From positions 1-44,371 of the forward strand of contig CALMBU010000099.1 of the NCBI GenBank assembly GCA_937863045.1: a stretch of 44,371 nt of DNA. Direction: 5' to 3'. The notes below the pieces were generated by a model, which saw only the letters and a program-made list of their open reading frames with translations, was not told the origin of the DNA and searched no databases. Of this stretch, positions 6,263 through 31,730 are shown piece by piece. Source of the stretch: an uncultured Polynucleobacter sp. Lineage in GTDB: Bacteria > Pseudomonadota > Gammaproteobacteria > Burkholderiales > Burkholderiaceae. Within the stretch, counting starts at the first letter, position 1. Every line of letters begins with the position of its first letter. The translations under genes and the position numbers were made by a program.

Positions 6263-6805
6263 ATGTCAACACGTTTACAAAGCTTCTATAAAGAAAAAGT
6301 TGCAGCCGATTTGATGAAAAAATTCGGTTACAAATCTGTTATGGAAGTGCCGCGCATCACCAAGATCACATTGAACATGGGTTTGGGCGAAGCGGTGAAT
6401 GATAAGAAAATCATTGAGCACGCAGTTGGCGATCTAACAAAGATCGCTGGACAAAAGCCTGTTGTAACCAAAGCGCGTAAAGCTATTGCGGGTTTCAAAA
6501 TCCGTCAAGGCTATCCGATTGGTGCAATGGTGACTTTGCGTGGCCAAACAATGTACGAATTCCTTGATCGTTTTATTACAGTTGCATTGCCACGTGTGCG
6601 CGATTTCCGCGGTATCTCAGGTAAGGCATTTGACGGTCGCGGTAACTACAACATTGGTGTTAAAGAGCAGATCATTTTCCCGGAAATTGAGTACGACAAA
6701 ATCGACTCACTACGCGGTTTAAATATCAGCATTACCACTACTGCTAAAACTGATGACGAAGCAAAAGCTTTGTTAGCAGCGTTTAAATTCCCATTCCGCA
6801 ATTAA
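6263..6805 (+). CDS. rplE: 50S ribosomal protein L5
   Basis: The 180-residue product is L5, which binds 5S rRNA and contacts S13 across the subunit interface. Conserved segments include [16 protein letters not shown] and [20 protein letters not shown], and the end is AFKFPFRN. In E. coli, S8 represses the spc operon at the start of this gene; I did not find an obvious copy of that target here. rpsN follows after 9 nt. Confidence 0.98.
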
Positions 6806-6814
6806 GAGGTCATC

Positions 6815-7120
6815 GTGGCTAAATTAGCATTGATTGAACGCGAAAAGAAGCGCACCAAGACTGTCGCAAAGTATGCTGCAAAGCGTGCAGAGTTAAAGGC
6901 GATTATTGATGACGTCTCTAAGAGCGAAGAAGAACGATATGAAGCTCGTTTGAAATTACAACAGCTTCCACGTAACGCAAGTCCAACTCGCCAGCGTAAT
7001 CGCTGTGCATTAACTGGCCGTCCACGCGGCACGTTCCGCAAGTTCGGCTTGGCCCGTAGCAAAATCCGTGAGATCGCCTTCCGTGGCGAGATCCCTGGTG
7101 TAACCAAGGCCAGCTGGTAA
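6815..7120 (+). CDS. rpsN: 30S ribosomal protein S14 (zinc-free form)
   Basis: Translation starts at a GTG preceded by GAGG, giving the normal N-terminus [12 protein letters not shown]. The 101-residue length and the segment [20 protein letters not shown], without paired CxxC motifs, identify the zinc-independent long form. S14 organises the 30S head. A 101-residue frame on the opposite strand mirrors it almost exactly and is a shadow. rpsH follows after 23 nt. Confidence 0.97.
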
Positions 7121-24186: not shown

Positions 24187-24201
24187 AGAGTTAATCTAAA
24201 G
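24181..24201. other. Inverted repeat across the cyaY and mrcA stop codons
   Basis: CTTTAGA (24181-24187) and TCTAAAG (24195-24201) are perfect 7-bp arms around a 7-nt loop that spans both stop codons. No T-run follows on either strand, so it is at best a weak bidirectional 3'-end structure. Confidence 0.4.
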
Positions 24202-26500
24202 TAGTTGTTCTGCCAAAGAATGGAACAAACGCAGGAATGGTCCAATCACCATCTTGTTGAACAACGCCAGCAGGAACTGGTCGCGTTGATTCAGGTACAC
24301 CGTTAAGAGCTGTTTTCATATACCTGATCCACATTGGTAATGCTAAGCCGCCACCAGTCTCGCGATCGCCCAAGCTTTTGGGTTTATCAAAGCCCATCCA
24401 TGCAACTGCGACCACATCTGAGTGATAACCTGCAAACCAAGCATCCATCGAATCGTTGGTTGTACCAGTTTTACCAGCAATATCAGATCTTCCTAGGGCG
24501 GATCTGGCTGAGGCAGCTGTTCCAGTTTTAGTCACTTCTTGAAGCAAGCTATCCATCACAAACGCTGTGCGCGCATCCAATGCTCGTAAATTAGGGTCAC
24601 CAGCTTTTTGAGGTGTTGCTTCAAAAAGCACATTTCCCTTGGCATCAATCACTTTACTGATCAAGTAAGGTTCAACGCGATAGCCACCGTTGGCAAACAC
24701 ACCATAACCTGTAGCGATTTGAAGCGGGGTTACTGAGCCAGCTCCCAAGGCCATCGTCAAGTAGGGCGGATGTTTTTCTGCTTCAAAGCCGAAGCGTTGA
24801 ATAAAATCCTGCGCGTAACGTGGCCCAATTTTTCTGATGACTCTCACGGATGCCAAGTTTTTAGATTTTGCTAGAGCAACCCGAATTTTCATTTGACCTT
24901 CAAACTTGCCGTCATAGTTTTTAGGGCTCCACATTTGACTGCCTGTTTCTAGTGCGCTGATAGAAAGCGGAGCGTCATTCACGAGCGTGTTTGGCATGAT
25001 GCCTTTTTCAAGAGCAGCAGCATAGATGAACGGTTTGAATGACGAACCTGGTTGACGCTGGGCTTGAGATACTCGATTGTATTTATTTCTGTTGAAATCA
25101 AAGCCACCAACCAGAGCTCGAATGCCGCCACTGTTCGTATCCAAAGACACAAACGCGGCTTCAACTCGAGGCATTTGCGCCAGAACCCAGCGACCCTCTG
25201 ATGGCAATACCCGAATAATGGCGCCAGGTTTGATTTGTTGCTTTGGTTGAGCTTTATCCGATAGTGCAACAGTGCCAAGCTTTAGATCGTCGCCTTTAAT
25301 CGTGACGGTGTCACCAGTGGCAATCACTGCTTGAATTTCTTTTGGGTTGACTGCAATCACCACACCCGCCAACAAATCATCACTGCTTGGATGATCACTT
25401 AAGGCATTGTCAATGGCTCTTTGTCTGGCAGTTAAATCTTCGGGTAGTTTGATGTAGCCCTCGGGCCCTCTGTACTTGTTACGTAGCTCATAATCCATGA
25501 TGCCTTTTCGAACGGCAGAGTAGGCGGCATCTTGTTCAGCCTTCTTGATGGTGGTGATAACCGTCATACCTTGTGTGTAGATGCCATCACCATATTCACT
25601 GATCAGTAACTGACGAACCATTTCGGTAGCAAAGTCAGCCTTGGTTGTGAACTCTCGACCAACCCCACGAATATGAAGAGTTTCGGTCATGGCAGATTGA
25701 TATTGGCTTGGAGTGATCATTTTTAAATCACGCATTCTTTGCAAGATATACTCTTGACGAATTTTTGCGCGACGATAATTCACAACCGGGTTGTAAGCAG
25801 AAGGAGCTTTAGGTAAGCCAGCCAGCATGGCTGCTTCAGCAATTGAAATGCGTTGAATATCTTTGCCGAAATAAATCTGTGCGGCACTGCCAAATCCATA
25901 AGCCCTCTGCCCCAAATAAATTTGGTTCATATACAACTCAAGAATTTGTTCTTTTGATAGGTTGGATTCTATTTTCCAGGCTAACAAAACTTCATAAATT
26001 TTTCGGGTGAATGATTTTTCATTGGTTAAGAAAAAATTCCTGGCCACTTGCATGGTGATGGTTGATGCACCTTGCGCTAGTCTGCCTCGTAAATTGGCAA
26101 GGGTGGCTCTTAAGACGCCCCAGTAATCAACCCCACCATGTGTGTAAAAACGTTCATCTTCAATCGCAACAACTGCATTTTTAAGGTAGCTTGGAATTTC
26201 TTCGATTGCAATGATATTTCTGCGCTCTTCACCAAACTCACCAATCAATGCATTGTCAGCTGTGTAAATGCGCAGAGGAACTTTAGGGTTGTAGTCGGTG
26301 ATGGTGTCTAGATCGGGTAGGTTGGGCTTAGCAACCACCAGCGCATAAACAATCACCAGGCCTAATAGGATAAGGCCAGCGCTTCCCAAGAAAATTCCCC
26401 AACGGATCAAATACTGCTGCCAATTGCGTTGTGGTTTTCTAGATTGGGCACCCCCGCCTAAGCGTGATGGTGGTCTTACGGGCTTGCGAGATTCACTCAT
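24191..26500 (-). CDS. mrcA: Penicillin-binding protein 1A (bifunctional transglycosylase and transpeptidase)
   Basis: The 769-residue class A PBP polymerises and crosslinks peptidoglycan. After a basic cytoplasmic tail and a transmembrane helix (about 33-56) comes the GT51 domain with catalytic E114 in AIEDERFYTHGGVD. The transpeptidase domain has SxxK at S486-K489 (PGSSFKPF), SxN at S546-N548 (SKN) and KTGTT at 677-681. Length is within the family range. Its ATG lies close to an intrinsic terminator that reads towards the gene. The gene upstream is divergent and belongs to a secretin module, the usual neighbour of ponA/mrcA in proteobacteria. Confidence 0.95.
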   Translation of the reverse strand: MSESRKPVRPPSRLGGGAQSRKPQRNWQQYLIRWGIFLGSAGLILLGLVIVYALVVAKPNLPDLDTITDYNPKVPLRIYTADNALIGEFGEERRNIIAIEEIPSYLKNAVVAIEDERFYTHGGVDYWGVLRATLANLRGRLAQGASTITMQVARNFFLTNEKSFTRKIYEVLLAWKIESNLSKEQILELYMNQIYLGQRAYGFGSAAQIYFGKDIQRISIAEAAMLAGLPKAPSAYNPVVNYRRAKIRQEYILQRMRDLKMITPSQYQSAMTETLHIRGVGREFTTKADFATEMVRQLLISEYGDGIYTQGMTVITTIKKAEQDAAYSAVRKGIMDYELRNKYRGPEGYIKLPEDLTARQRAIDNALSDHPSSDDLLAGVVIAVNPKEIQAVIATGDTVTIKGDDLKLGTVALSDKAQPKQQIKPGAIIRVLPSEGRWVLAQMPRVEAAFVSLDTNSGGIRALVGGFDFNRNKYNRVSQAQRQPGSSFKPFIYAAALEKGIMPNTLVNDAPLSISALETGSQMWSPKNYDGKFEGQMKIRVALAKSKNLASVRVIRKIGPRYAQDFIQRFGFEAEKHPPYLTMALGAGSVTPLQIATGYGVFANGGYRVEPYLISKVIDAKGNVLFEATPQKAGDPNLRALDARTAFVMDSLLQEVTKTGTAASARSALGRSDIAGKTGTTNDSMDAWFAGYHSDVVAVAWMGFDKPKSLGDRETGGGLALPMWIRYMKTALNGVPESTRPVPAGVVQQDGDWTIPAFVPFFGRTTTLD

Positions 26501-26639: not shown

Positions 26640-27218
26640 ATGATCAAACGCTCCTTCACTTCAGACTCTTATGACCAAGCTTTTTCTGAACAAGCGATAA
26701 AAACACCCTCATTTTCTCCGGAATTACTTAAAAAAATGAATGGTGAGCAAGTGCGAATCCTTTTCTCAAAACACAAGGCCTTGGTGCTGAGCTTTATCAA
26801 TTTGATGGGGATGCTTGCCTTCCTAGTTTTTATGATGATCCAGCTTCAGGAGCTTCATCGGCAAATCGACGAGGGGCAAGGCAAGGTTTCCAAATTAGAA
26901 GCTTCAATCAAGGCCATTCAGGAATCCTTAGAGAGAGGCGCGGAGTCGTTATCACCCGTGCATGAATCAAAATTTGGCTCCCAGTCTCAAGCCCAGCATG
27001 AGTCTGATTTGTTGATCAATGATTGGAACATTCAATACTTGGGCTTGGTTCAAGCGGGACATTCATTCAAGGCCCTGCTGGAGGTTGACGAAGTCGCGGG
27101 CTTTTTTAGCAAAGGGCAAATGGTCGAGGGGCGTTGGCTGATCAAATCATTTGACCATTCTCAAATGATCTTGGAGTCAATCAAGGGTCAGCAAATAACC
27201 ATTCCTTTGGAGAAATGA
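26640..27218 (+). CDS. Membrane-anchored PilP/GspC-like protein
   Basis: The 192-residue protein has a cytoplasmic N-terminus of about 47 residues, one transmembrane helix (about 48-68), a probable coiled coil (69-98), a polar linker, and a C-terminal beta-rich segment (about 128-190, beginning WNIQYLGLVQAGHSFKALLE) that resembles the secretin-binding domain of PilP and GspC. It lacks the lipobox of true PilP; its topology is that of GspC or of PilN/PilO. It lies 1 nt before a secretin gene and likely couples that secretin to the inner membrane. The family assignment is by pattern only. pilM, pilN and pilO are absent. Confidence 0.55.
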   Translation: MIKRSFTSDSYDQAFSEQAIKTPSFSPELLKKMNGEQVRILFSKHKALVLSFINLMGMLAFLVFMMIQLQELHRQIDEGQGKVSKLEASIKAIQESLERGAESLSPVHESKFGSQSQAQHESDLLINDWNIQYLGLVQAGHSFKALLEVDEVAGFFSKGQMVEGRWLIKSFDHSQMILESIKGQQITIPLEK

Positions 27219-27219
27219 G

Positions 27220-28296
27220 ATGAATAAAAGAAGATTTTGGCTAAAGCTATCTCTGATGATATTGATGATTCCTACTTTCAATGCCTCTGCTCAGGAGGGT
27301 TTTTCAGAAAAAACCATCACTCTTAAATTTTCATCAGTTGATCTTCGGCAGCTGCTGCAAATGTTGGCGGATATGAGGGGTTTGAATTTGATGATGAGCG
27401 ATAAAGTATCTGGCAAAACCAGTATCAACATGAGAAATGCATCCTGGCAAACAACCTTTGATTCAGTCTTGGCCAGTAAATCTCTTGGGTCACGTTTTGA
27501 TAAGGATGTTTTATGGGTTGCTCCTTATGAAGAGTTGGCCTTGTTTCATCAAAGACAAAAAGACCGTGAGCAGCAGCATCAAATGGGGCAAATGGGAGAG
27601 TTGCGACAAATCATGATTGAGGCAAGGATTGTTGAAGCTGAGAGAAGATTTGCGCAAAACTTGGGAGCAAAGCTGGCCTATCAACAACAACCCAACTTTA
27701 AATCAGGCCACCATCTTGGGGCATCAGGCTTAAGTGGCTTTGAGCCAGGCACCGCTGCTATCACTCTCTTAGGCAAGCAGGCAACCCAAGCCTTAAATAT
27801 GGAACTTTCCGCTTTAGAGTCGAATGGCCTGGGAAATATTGTGTCTAACCCCAGGGTGCTGGCTGCTGAAAATACCCAGGCTTTGATAGAGCAGGGTACC
27901 GAGTTACCTTATCAGTCATCAGCGGGCCAAGGTGCCACCAAAGTTCAGTTCAGAAAAGCCAATCTTCGTTTGGAGGTGAAGCCTCGGATTCAGAAAAATC
28001 AGATGATTGTTTTGGATGTTGATATCAACAAAGACAGTGTTGGATTAAAAACAGAGCAAGGTTTTGCCATTGATACCAAGCATGTCAAAACACAGGTCTT
28101 GGTTGAAAGCGGCGGAACTGTGATTTTGGGAGGTATTTTTCAAGAAATGGAAAGAAAAGATGACGCCAAGGTCCCATTCTTGGGCTCAATTCCATTGATT
28201 GGCTTTCTTTTTAGGCAAGAGTCAAAGTTCAAAGATAAAACAGAATTGCTAATTTTTTTAACCCCAACCTTGGTTTCTAGTCAAAAGCCTCAGTAG
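27220..28296 (+). CDS. Short secretin (HofQ/PilQ-like), apparently lacking the N1 domain
   Basis: The 358-residue protein has a signal peptide (1-24), an N0/STN-type domain (about 33-104: [20 protein letters not shown] to LWVAPYEE) and a secretin core from about 128 ([15 protein letters not shown]) to 352. The core includes [15 protein letters not shown], the gate-region strands, and [15 protein letters not shown] (318-332) with [10 protein letters not shown]. Between N0 and the core there is only a charged Gln-rich linker of about 23 residues; the N1 (KH-like) domain usual in PilQ and HofQ is not seen. Secretins form outer-membrane channels for type IV pili, DNA uptake or type II secretion. 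Position before aroK is the classical pilQ/hofQ locus. Confidence 0.8.
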
Positions 28297-28306
28297 AATC
28301 TCATGT

Positions 28307-28831
28307 ATGAACAGTTTTCCAGAAAATATCTTTTTAGTGGGGGTGATGGGCGCCGGTAAAACCACCGTTGGCCGTCTCTTGGCTAAAAAATTAGGAAGAC
28401 GATTTGTCGACTCTGATCATGAAATTGAAGCTCGTTGCGGTGTTCGCATTCCAACCATATTTGAAATGGAGGGTGAAGAAGGATTTCGCAAACGAGAGGC
28501 CCAGGTCATTGATGAGTTAACTCAAGAAAAGAATTTGGTTTTGGCAACGGGTGGTGGCGCTGTTTTATTGCCTGAAAATCGCCAACATTTACATCAAAGA
28601 GGTGTGGTTGTTTATCTTCGTGCAACACCTCATGAGCTCTGGTTAAGAACTCGAAATGACAAGGGCAGGCCATTGTTGAATAACGATGATCCTAGGGGCA
28701 CCCTAGAAAAGCTTTTCGCGATTCGTGACCCCTTGTATAGAGAAACCGCCCATCATGTGGTTGATACTGGTAAGCCCAGCGTCACTCAGTTGGTGAACAC
28801 ACTAATGATGCAATTTGAATTATCAACATGA
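28307..28831 (+). CDS. aroK: Shikimate kinase
   Basis: The 174-residue NMP-kinase-fold enzyme phosphorylates shikimate with ATP in aromatic amino-acid synthesis. Walker A is GVMGAGKT (12-19), the shikimate- and Mg-binding aspartates are in VDSDHEI (D35, D37), the arginine is in GFRKRE, and the GGG motif is in ATGGGAVLL (82-84). The aroK stop overlaps the aroB ATG by 4 nt (ATGA). It lies 10 nt after the secretin gene, as in many proteobacteria. Confidence 0.96.
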
Positions 28832-29910
28832 ACACTCTTCAATTAGATTTAGGCGAGCGCAGTTACCCGATCCATATTGGATCTCAATTGCTTGGTCAAG
28901 CAGACTTATATAAGAAACATATCAAGGGCACTTTGACTGCAGTGGTCACGAATGAAACAGTGGCTCCTTTGTACGCCGATAAGGTCGTTAAAACTTTAGA
29001 GGGCATTGGTCAAAAAGTGAAACTCATTGTTTTGCCTGATGGCGAGGAATTTAAAACATGGGAAGTGCTGCAAAAGATTTTTGACGGCTTATTAGAAAAC
29101 TCTGCTGACCGAAAGACCACGCTGGTTGCACTGGGTGGGGGCGTGATTGGTGATATGACAGGTTTTGCGGCTGCATGCTATATGCGCGGCATTAAATTCA
29201 TTCAAGTACCCACCACCTTGTTATCTCAGGTTGATTCATCGGTGGGGGGTAAGACTGGTATCAACCATCCTTTGGGTAAAAATATGGTGGGTGCTTTTCA
29301 TCAGCCACAAGCCGTGATTGCTGATTTAGATACTTTGAAGACCTTGCCGCCTGAAGAGTTGGCAGCCGGTTTGGCTGAAGTGATCAAACATGGCGCCATT
29401 GCTGATCCTGAATTTTTATCTTGGATTGAGAAAAACCAAGATGCATTGAATGAATGTGATCCGGCAGCGATGGAGCATGCCGTGCGTCGCTCATGTGAAA
29501 TCAAATCTCAGGTCGTGGCTCAAGATGAAAAAGAAGGCGGCATTCGTGCCATCTTAAATTTTGGACACACCTTTGGTCATGCAATTGAAGCCGGTATGGG
29601 CTACGGTTCTTGGTTGCACGGTCAAGCCGTTGGCTGCGGTATGGTCATGGCGGCTGATTTATCGGTTCGAGTGGGTTTGCTAGCTGAAGCAGATGCATCT
29701 CGCTTAAAGAAAATCATTCAAGCACTTCGCTTACCAACTCAGCCACCTAAATTAGGCGTTGATCGTTTCATGGAATTGATGAGCGTCGATAAAAAAGCAG
29801 AAGGTGGTGAGGTTCGTTACATTTTGCTCAACGGCTTGGGGCAAGCAAAAATTCAAACGGTTGATGATGAGCTTGTGATTCAAACGCTGCTTGCCAATGG
29901 TGTTGCTTGA
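28828..29910 (+). CDS. aroB: 3-dehydroquinate synthase
   Basis: The 360-residue NAD- and zinc-dependent enzyme makes 3-dehydroquinate from [14 protein letters not shown] (103-112) binds [14 protein letters not shown] (136-146) lies at the active site; metal ligands are expected in [10 protein letters not shown] and [11 protein letters not shown]. Length matches the family. It is translationally coupled to aroK, and dgt follows after a short spacer. Confidence 0.96.
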
Positions 29911-31043: not shown

Positions 31044-31730
31044 ATGGCCAGACTTCAAAGAGTTGTTCTTCCGGGTTATCCGCTGCACATGATGGTCAGA
31101 GGACATAACTCCCAGGACATCTTCACCTCTGATGAAGAAAAAAAATCTTATCTTGAGTGGCTCAGAGATTCCGCGCGAGAATATGAGTTAGCCATTCATG
31201 CCTATGCTTTGATGCCCAATCATGTGCATATTTTGGCCACGCCCAAAACAGTTGTAAGCGCCTCCAAAGTGATGCAGTCCATTGGGCGTCGTTACGCGCA
31301 ATTGTTTAATCAGACACATGGTTCAAGTGGCACGGTGTGGGAGGGTAGGTTCAAATCATGCTTGATTGATCCTGACGCTTATTTTTTATTGGTTCAAAAA
31401 TACATCGAACAAAATCCGGTGAGAACTGGATTGGCCCAGAAACCTGAAGAATGGACTTGGTCCAGCTATCGCCATCACGCCGGTTCTGAAACAATCCCTT
31501 GGATTGCCGACCATCCATCCTATTGGGCAATCGCCAATACCCCCTTTGAGCGCCAAATGGCTTGGCAAAAATCGGTCTTAGAGCCATTAAGCCTTGCTGA
31601 GGTTGAAAAAGTAAGTAAGCACTTAAGCTATGGGTGGCCAATGGCCAGTGAAGCCTTCCTAAAGCAGTTGGCACTTAAAACATCCAGACCTTTGCAGCCA
31701 CGACTTGCTGGAAGGCCAAAAAAGTCCTAA
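31044..31730 (+). mobile_element. REP-associated tyrosine transposase (RAYT, IS200/IS605-like Y1 family)
   Basis: The 228-residue protein has the HUH metal-binding motif in MPNHVHIL (H60, H62) and the likely nucleophile Y84 in GRRYAQLFNQ, followed by TVWEGRFKS and YIEQNPVRTGL, all typical of RAYT/Y1 transposases. RAYTs are single-copy, domesticated relatives of IS200 tnpA that act on REP hairpins. Its ATG directly abuts the dgt TAA (no spacer). No terminal inverted repeats or target-site duplication are evident. Two REP-like repeats lie 46-115 nt downstream. It seems intact. Confidence 0.85.

Follow-up and report, generated by a model that had tools for sequence, protein, structure and literature searches.

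What does a secretin gene do at the pilMNOPQ place when a single other gene accompanies it? In E. coli, hofMNOPQ lies between mrcA and aroK. The window analyzed here, a whole contig of 44,371 nucleotides from an uncultured Polynucleobacter sp., has the same flanks. As the original prediction claimed, only two genes, here called P1 (192 aa) and SEC (358 aa), lie between the divergent mrcA and aroK-aroB. Both ORFs are open, with 1 nt between them. The genome to which the window belongs (G000) comprises 1,447,762 bases in 176 contigs and is 95% complete. The features of the locus are as follows.

24191-26500, minus strand: mrcA/ponA (penicillin-binding protein 1a), the divergent left flank, with Transgly, Transpeptidase and PCB_OB Pfam domains.
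26640-27218, plus strand: P1, a single-pass inner-membrane protein with a C-terminal PilP/GspC-HR domain (ORF; AlphaFold; PDB matches to PilP and GspC-HR).
26640-26774, plus strand: P1 residues 1-45, predicted cytoplasmic tail (alignment; low pLDDT).
26775-26948, plus strand: P1 residues 46-103, one long helix, a membrane span followed by a coiled-coil-like stalk (AlphaFold; hydropathy).
27021-27215, plus strand: P1 residues 128-192, HR/PilP beta-domain (AlphaFold pLDDT; Z 9.1-9.6 to PilP and GspC-HR).
27220-28296, plus strand: SEC, a short PilQ-type secretin (PF00263, 2.5e-46; TIGR02515 above cut-off; PDB matches to PilQ).
27220-27294, plus strand: SEC residues 1-25, signal-peptide-like start, read by eye.
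27301-27591, plus strand: SEC residues 28-124, N0 and the helix after it (best match PilQ N0 of 4ar0, Z 11.7, rmsd 3.8, 95 residues).
27598-28284, plus strand: SEC residues 127-355, secretin core (matches to the GspD, pIV, RcpA and PilQ cores; PF00263 at 198-352).
28307-28831, plus strand: aroK (shikimate kinase), right flank (PF01202, 1.1e-54).
28828-29910, plus strand: aroB (3-dehydroquinate synthase), right flank (DHQ_synthase and DHQS_C domains).

The two-gene locus proved to be real and not particular to the window genome; it is common to the whole genus. A secretin match was found in 97 of 101 genus genomes, and the other four are 80-91% complete and split into 150-260 contigs. By hand count, SEC is open and full-length in 89 of the 101, a figure that leaves out G092 (which has only another secretin), G022, G061, G074 and G083 (contig-end or short fragments), G017 and G023 (split genes) and G095 (one stop). 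All 40 fetched genus loci showed the mrcA and aroK flanks; SEC was open in 36 and a single other ORF of at least 150 aa (170-270 aa) was present in 37, the exceptions being L047, L048 and L056, with L061 an exception for SEC only. A second set of 72 loci (L100-L171) was assigned to the genus by secretin likeness; many carry the name Polynucleobacter, and the remainder are listed as unnamed Burkholderiaceae or Betaproteobacteria. Sixty-nine of these reach mrcA, and each of the 69 has a single P1-type ORF (170-271 aa), with no other ORF reaching 100 aa between mrcA and SEC, in line with the earlier claim that no PilM, PilN or PilO is encoded between mrcA and aroK. The rows dropped from this set were L126, L145 and L163, which do not reach mrcA, and L117, which is redundant. 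SEC is 95% identical in the two best-matching Polynucleobacter loci, and strong matches to the P1 profile were confined to the genus in a search of 299 family genomes, in which most weak matches were to coiled coils.

Related Burkholderiales keep the flanks and carry pilMNOPQ, or a reduced form of it, at the same place. Pfam identified the four ORFs between mrcA and the secretin of L178 as PilM, PilN, PilO and PilP, and the four of L172 resemble them by length and, by eye, in sequence. Three loci from family genomes (L192-L194) have a PilQ-like gene flanked by mrcA and aroK. There we read by eye PilO- and PilP-like ORFs in all three, a PilN-like ORF in L192 and L193, and a PilM-like ORF in L193, longer opposite-strand ORFs having masked the remaining PilM/PilN-like ones. 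Limnohabitans-type loci (L173, L175-L177 and L179) show an intermediate state between mrcA and aroK. They hold a shortened PilM-like ORF (24.6 and 26 bits on PilM_2 in the two scanned, cut-off 27), a PilN-like ORF called from position alone, and an ORF of 347-386 aa whose C-terminus resembles PilP (E 1.5e-4) and whose middle weakly resembles PilO (E 0.0025). This last ORF is, on these alignments, likely a PilO-PilP fusion. The Brachymonas locus (L174) lay outside both the Pfam scan and the fused-ORF alignment. Given these graded states (four ORFs, Limnohabitans-type, two genes), a stepwise reduction of the locus seems to have taken place in some Burkholderiales, going furthest in Polynucleobacter, as judged from present-day loci rather than from a tree. 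The P1 profile matched weakly, in frame, inside pilP of all three fetched outgroup loci (G181, E 0.0003; G215, 0.003; G123, 0.005), and coiled-coil matches in the same search of 299 family genomes scored equal to or above these. Loci from other family genera (L195-L197) have pilus or secretion clusters with small proteins that the P1 profile matches weakly; by eye these are PilP/GspC-like, and the three put through Pfam gave no telling match.

P1 was predicted to be a one-TM protein with a PilP-like end, and both parts of that description held. In hydropathy analysis, 68 of 70 P1 rows reached 1.6 over a 19-residue window, and a second such segment was seen in 0 of 70. The AlphaFold model, built from 69 rows, has a mean pLDDT of 80.4 and shows helix 46-103 and a beta domain; block means are 94-96 at residues 131-190, 82 for the last two residues and 60 at 121-130. 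The beta domain matched GspC-HR (3oss; Z 9.6, rmsd 2.4, 62 residues) and PilP (2y4y; Z 9.3, rmsd 1.9, 63 residues; 2ivw; Z 9.1, rmsd 1.8, 65 residues). Unrelated proteins begin at Z 6.1 in this ranking, and GspB, a Dot/Icm protein and other secretion-system parts stand between them and the GspC and PilP rows. Foldseek's own E-values are modest, with PilP best at 0.003. Profile comparisons with the PDB gave PilP at E 0.04-0.19 amid coiled-coil noise, a weak match and the best biologically sensible one; with the C-terminal domain alone, PilP ranked first at E 0.07. The C-terminal alignment used 48 of the 69 P1 rows. Of these 48 domains, 14 matched Pfam HofP weakly (best E 0.014), and PF04351 (PilP) was absent from the 14 Pfam families found for them. 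For the 69 full-length proteins, 25 of 129 Pfam families are among the matches listed. Neither Pfam nor NCBIfam gave a match for the window P1 up to E 10, and alignment of P1 to two PilP sequences was not significant.

The proposal that P1 also does the work of PilN and PilO fared less well. Only the PilP/HR domain is recognizable in P1; comparison with PilO gave no match, and neither a PilO nor a PilN domain could be recognized. PilN carries a PilM-binding motif. The conserved tail motif of P1 (R4 invariant; M1, F11 and D12 in at least 90% of 69 rows, with Y at position 11 in the window) does not resemble that motif. The window P1 has no cysteine and is therefore no lipoprotein; 41 of 70 P1 proteins have some cysteine, with one lipobox-like pattern, in the middle of the L139 protein. 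PilO-PilP fusions, one of which has been reported for Pseudomonas putida (Q88CU9) in a passage of PMC3169554, similarly join a membrane anchor and a PilP domain in one protein, and P1 differs from them in having no recognizable PilO domain. A possible recent origin of P1 from such a fusion was considered: P1 aligned with the fused Limnohabitans-type ORFs over the HR part only (E 0.0004 and 0.00004), P1 and PilO did not match, and the fused ORFs themselves resemble PilO weakly in that half.

SEC scored 302.2 bits on TIGR02515 (PilQ), passing the cut-off of 284.35, and 201.3 bits on HofQ and 166.9 bits on GspD, each under its cut-off. Its AlphaFold model is weaker than that of P1 (mean pLDDT 68) and shows N0 at residues 32-102, a helix at 103-124 and then the core. 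In a secretin alignment of 26 of the 72 genus loci plus the window and five of eight outgroups, the N1 columns held 0-1 residues in 27 of 27 genus rows versus 62-70 in 5 of 5 outgroup rows, and the helix after N0 led directly into the core. Likewise, in a tblastn comparison with L192, two parts of SEC matched across a gap of ∼230 nt, the size of N1. With N0 present and the N1 columns empty, SEC is classed as an N1-less variant of the PilQ-type secretin. Pilus secretins are described as having a helix after N0 (PMC3441751); in SEC this helix could be a remnant of N1, since some structural rows align it with N1-range residues. A secretin without N1 contradicts a statement, in one section of a review, that N0 and N1 occur in all secretins (PMC4471445).

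Are the missing partners encoded elsewhere? Profiles for PilM, PilN and PilO gave no match in G000 or in the closed genome of a close relative (G027). Intact pilMNO elsewhere, named beforehand as a refuting result, was thus not seen, and strongly diverged forms could escape such a search. The PilM-like ORFs of the Limnohabitans-type loci narrowly missed the Pfam cut-off, their PilN- and PilO-like ORFs had no match to those two profiles, and the PilO profile gave no match in E. coli, so diverged PilM, PilN or PilO in G000 could be missed. Across 33 genomes, the PilO profile matched in none, the PilN profile in G036, G002 and G023 only, and the PilM profile gave partial matches only (profile positions about 172-239), save for a second system in G068, G002, G036 and G023. 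In our reading, these partial matches are FtsA-like. PilT was not found: one T2SSE ATPase exceeded the cut-off in G000, where it scores best as PilB, and one in G027. In some genomes, additional ATPases or PilM/PilN matches suggest a second system. At about 868.8-870.3 kb of G036:C1, and likewise in G002 and G023, the PilM and PilN matches of that system fall in frames of equal length (564-580 aa), which suggests a GspL-like fusion.

Other pilus and uptake genes were recovered by the whole-genome search. SEC is the sole secretin found in G000, and contig C51 carries pilB-pilC-pilD. The PilB ATPase (389 aa) scored 431 bits on PilB (cut-off 676) versus 389 on GspE, under both cut-offs. The best-scoring stretch begins at position 176 of the 564 in the profile, which means that the N-terminal region of PilB is missing. 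PilC scored best as HofC, under the NCBIfam cut-off. PilD usually has a methyltransferase part. The 151-aa PilD of G000 (L088 5048-5503, on C51) has Peptidase_A24 alone above cut-off, and the methyltransferase part is absent here and also in G078 (166 aa). Contig C63 encodes a PF00114 pilin; C144 has minor-pilin-like genes, of which one matches N_methyl weakly. ComEC lies on C148 (TIGR00361, 354.8 bits; cut-off 190.05) and is also present in the closed relative G027. A ComEA-type HhH ORF lies on C172; because an HhH match turned up in every one of 37 genomes, whether ComEC was there or not, this ORF carries little information.

From pilB-pilC-pilD, the pilins, ComEC and the ComEA-like gene of the same genome, we infer that the DNA-uptake role originally proposed may be the right one. 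P1 and SEC are probably the components that span the envelope in a heavily reduced type IVa pilus (T4aP), with DNA uptake as its most likely job. SEC would be the outer-membrane gate. P1 would sit in the inner membrane by its one helix, reach into the periplasm with its stalk and clamp SEC by docking its HR domain on N0, the way PilP and GspC dock on their secretins. At the base, the short PilB motor and the PilC platform would assemble the pilus from pilins processed by a peptidase-only PilD, and the tail of P1 may couple to PilB or PilC. DNA reaching the periplasm would be passed to the ComEA-like protein and ComEC. Neisseria PilP binds N0, not N1, according to a passage in PMC3441751, and GspC-HR binds the N0 of GspD (PMC3169554). 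With N0 retained in SEC and the HR fold in P1, the contact between them can stand without N1.

How does this set compare with known filaments? The chromosomal place and flanks are those of T4aP PilMNOP and PilQ, SEC exceeds the PilQ subfamily cut-off, and P1 has the PilP/HR fold that binds N0 in known systems. PilB, PilC, PilD and pilins are also present. The differences from T4aP are that PilM, PilN and PilO were not found, the connector is single-pass and no lipoprotein, the secretin has no N1, PilB and PilD are shortened, and PilB and PilC fall under their NCBIfam cut-offs. The monoderm Com pilus, as outlined in sections of PMC10191384 and PMC6370729, consists of pilins, a peptidase, one motor and one platform, with no PilMNOP and no PilT, and its motor ComGA also lacks the N1 domain of PilB (PMC6370729, same section). 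The system in G000 is similar in having few parts, one motor without the N-terminal domain of PilB, one platform and no PilT found; it differs in its outer-membrane secretin and PilP-like connector, in an ATPase that scores best as PilB, and in a locus derived from T4aP. With PilM, PilN, PilO and PilT not found and N1 absent, the parts list comes near that of a monoderm Com pilus plus a minimal gate. Whether the whole genus has a working 'diderm Com pilus', reached by T4aP reduction, without PilM, PilN, PilO or PilT, with an N1-less secretin and with P1 alone replacing PilMNOP, we consider an even call.

A diderm without PilMNO is in itself no novelty, because T4bP and Tad (T4cP) filaments lack PilMNOP; in these diderm filaments other inner-membrane proteins, such as TcpR and TcpD, are present or may stand in, as stated in part of the 2023 review (PMC10191384). 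By comparison, the T4aP-derived set described here keeps a single PilP-like protein, and the tail of P1 could take a TcpR-like role. What looks new is that a T4aP-derived set has retained the gate and a single clamp while shedding the other parts, N1 among them. In searches of open-licence PMC papers, no title or abstract opening among those listed described a P1-SEC module. Passages of two reviews present the role of PilMNOP as debated, between building the pilus and joining or stabilizing its parts (PMC4471445, PMC10191384). The 2023 review, in the part on the monoderm Com pilus, suggests that motor and platform may be the minimal assembly complex, with PilMNOP perhaps mainly stabilizing (PMC10191384). 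If our reading is true, a two-membrane T4aP-derived system with motor, platform, pilins, gate and one PilP-like clamp makes this question directly testable. Named Polynucleobacter strains carry the locus, so DNA uptake could be tested in culture.

Across genomes, damage to SEC or P1 tends to coincide with damage to pilC. Among 33 genomes, SEC is broken or reduced in four and pilC in four, with three in common (3/4 versus 1/29; Fisher p 0.003, kinship ignored). Among 30 other genomes, P1 is broken in four and pilC in two, both shared (2/4 versus 0/26; p 0.014, kinship ignored); this count leaves out G283, where pilC is seemingly split over two contigs, and p becomes 0.037 if G283 is scored as broken. 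These p-values are generous, as kinship is uncorrected and some of the broken genomes may be symbionts with general decay. The clearest case of co-loss is G083, which has remnants of P1 and SEC, pilC cut to a 70-aa tail and a retained pilD, with pilB and ComEC not found. A VapC/PIN-like ORF fragment, identified by eye, lies between the P1 and SEC remnants of this genome (L056, about 6652-6840), suggesting that an insertion broke the module there. Stops despite an intact pilC were seen in SEC of G095 and in P1 of G352 and G325. ComEC is missing in 6 of the 33 genomes, four of which have an intact SEC, and co-loss of SEC and ComEC was not significant (p 0.14). G089 keeps SEC with no match to pilB, pilC or ComEC, and the pilB match of G006, which also has SEC, contains a stop.

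A pilus for twitching, adhesion or surface sensing, with DNA uptake not its main role, would fit G032, G068 and G079, where ComEC was not found though SEC and pilC genes remain. We regard this as unlikely, because ComEC was found in 27 of the 33 genomes and because twitching normally needs PilT, whereas a single T2SSE ATPase exceeds the cut-off and no PilT was found.

We also give a low probability to a short type II secretion-like (pseudopilus) system, in which P1 would act as GspC, SEC as GspD, and pilB-pilC-pilD would drive a protein-secretion piston. The topology of P1 (tail, one helix, HR) is nearer to GspC than to a lipoprotein PilP; the GspC-GspD pair likewise has an N0-bearing secretin; the top structural row for P1 is GspC-HR, tied with PilP; and no PilT was found, as in type II secretion. 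But SEC scores best as PilQ (302 bits versus 167 for GspD, the latter under its cut-off), PilB is the best-scoring model for the ATPase, the two genes occupy the pilMNOPQ locus, and a PF00114 pilin is present. G000 has no match to the PilM, PilN and PilO families, the counterparts of GspL and GspM, and, unlike the GspC-GspD pair, SEC lacks N1 and P1 ends at its HR domain. The reduced T4aP for DNA uptake is our preferred reading.

Both genes of the module are under selection. Among the window, G027, L100 and L101, P1 is 56-65% identical with dN/dS of 0.25-0.41, SEC is 94-96% identical with dN/dS of 0.025-0.05, and the neighboring aroK is 98-99% identical with dN/dS of 0.01-0.03. P1 is under purifying selection, yet by dN/dS its rate of change is ∼5 to 15 times that of SEC. 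Reading frames are kept among these four near relatives, the loss of which had been named as a second refuting result, and the earlier view that the locus does not look like decay is borne out. That it is a pilMNOPQ remnant on its way out is highly improbable: P1 does change fast and broken copies occur in some genomes, but dN/dS is well under 1 for P1 and SEC, SEC is open and full-length in most genus genomes (89/101), and all 69 loci hold one P1 ORF.

Scans of the window for promoters, terminators and tandem repeats gave nothing clearly over chance. A Y1_Tnp transposase gene (IS200-like, possibly REP-associated) lies at 31044-31730, directly after a dgt-like HD-domain gene.
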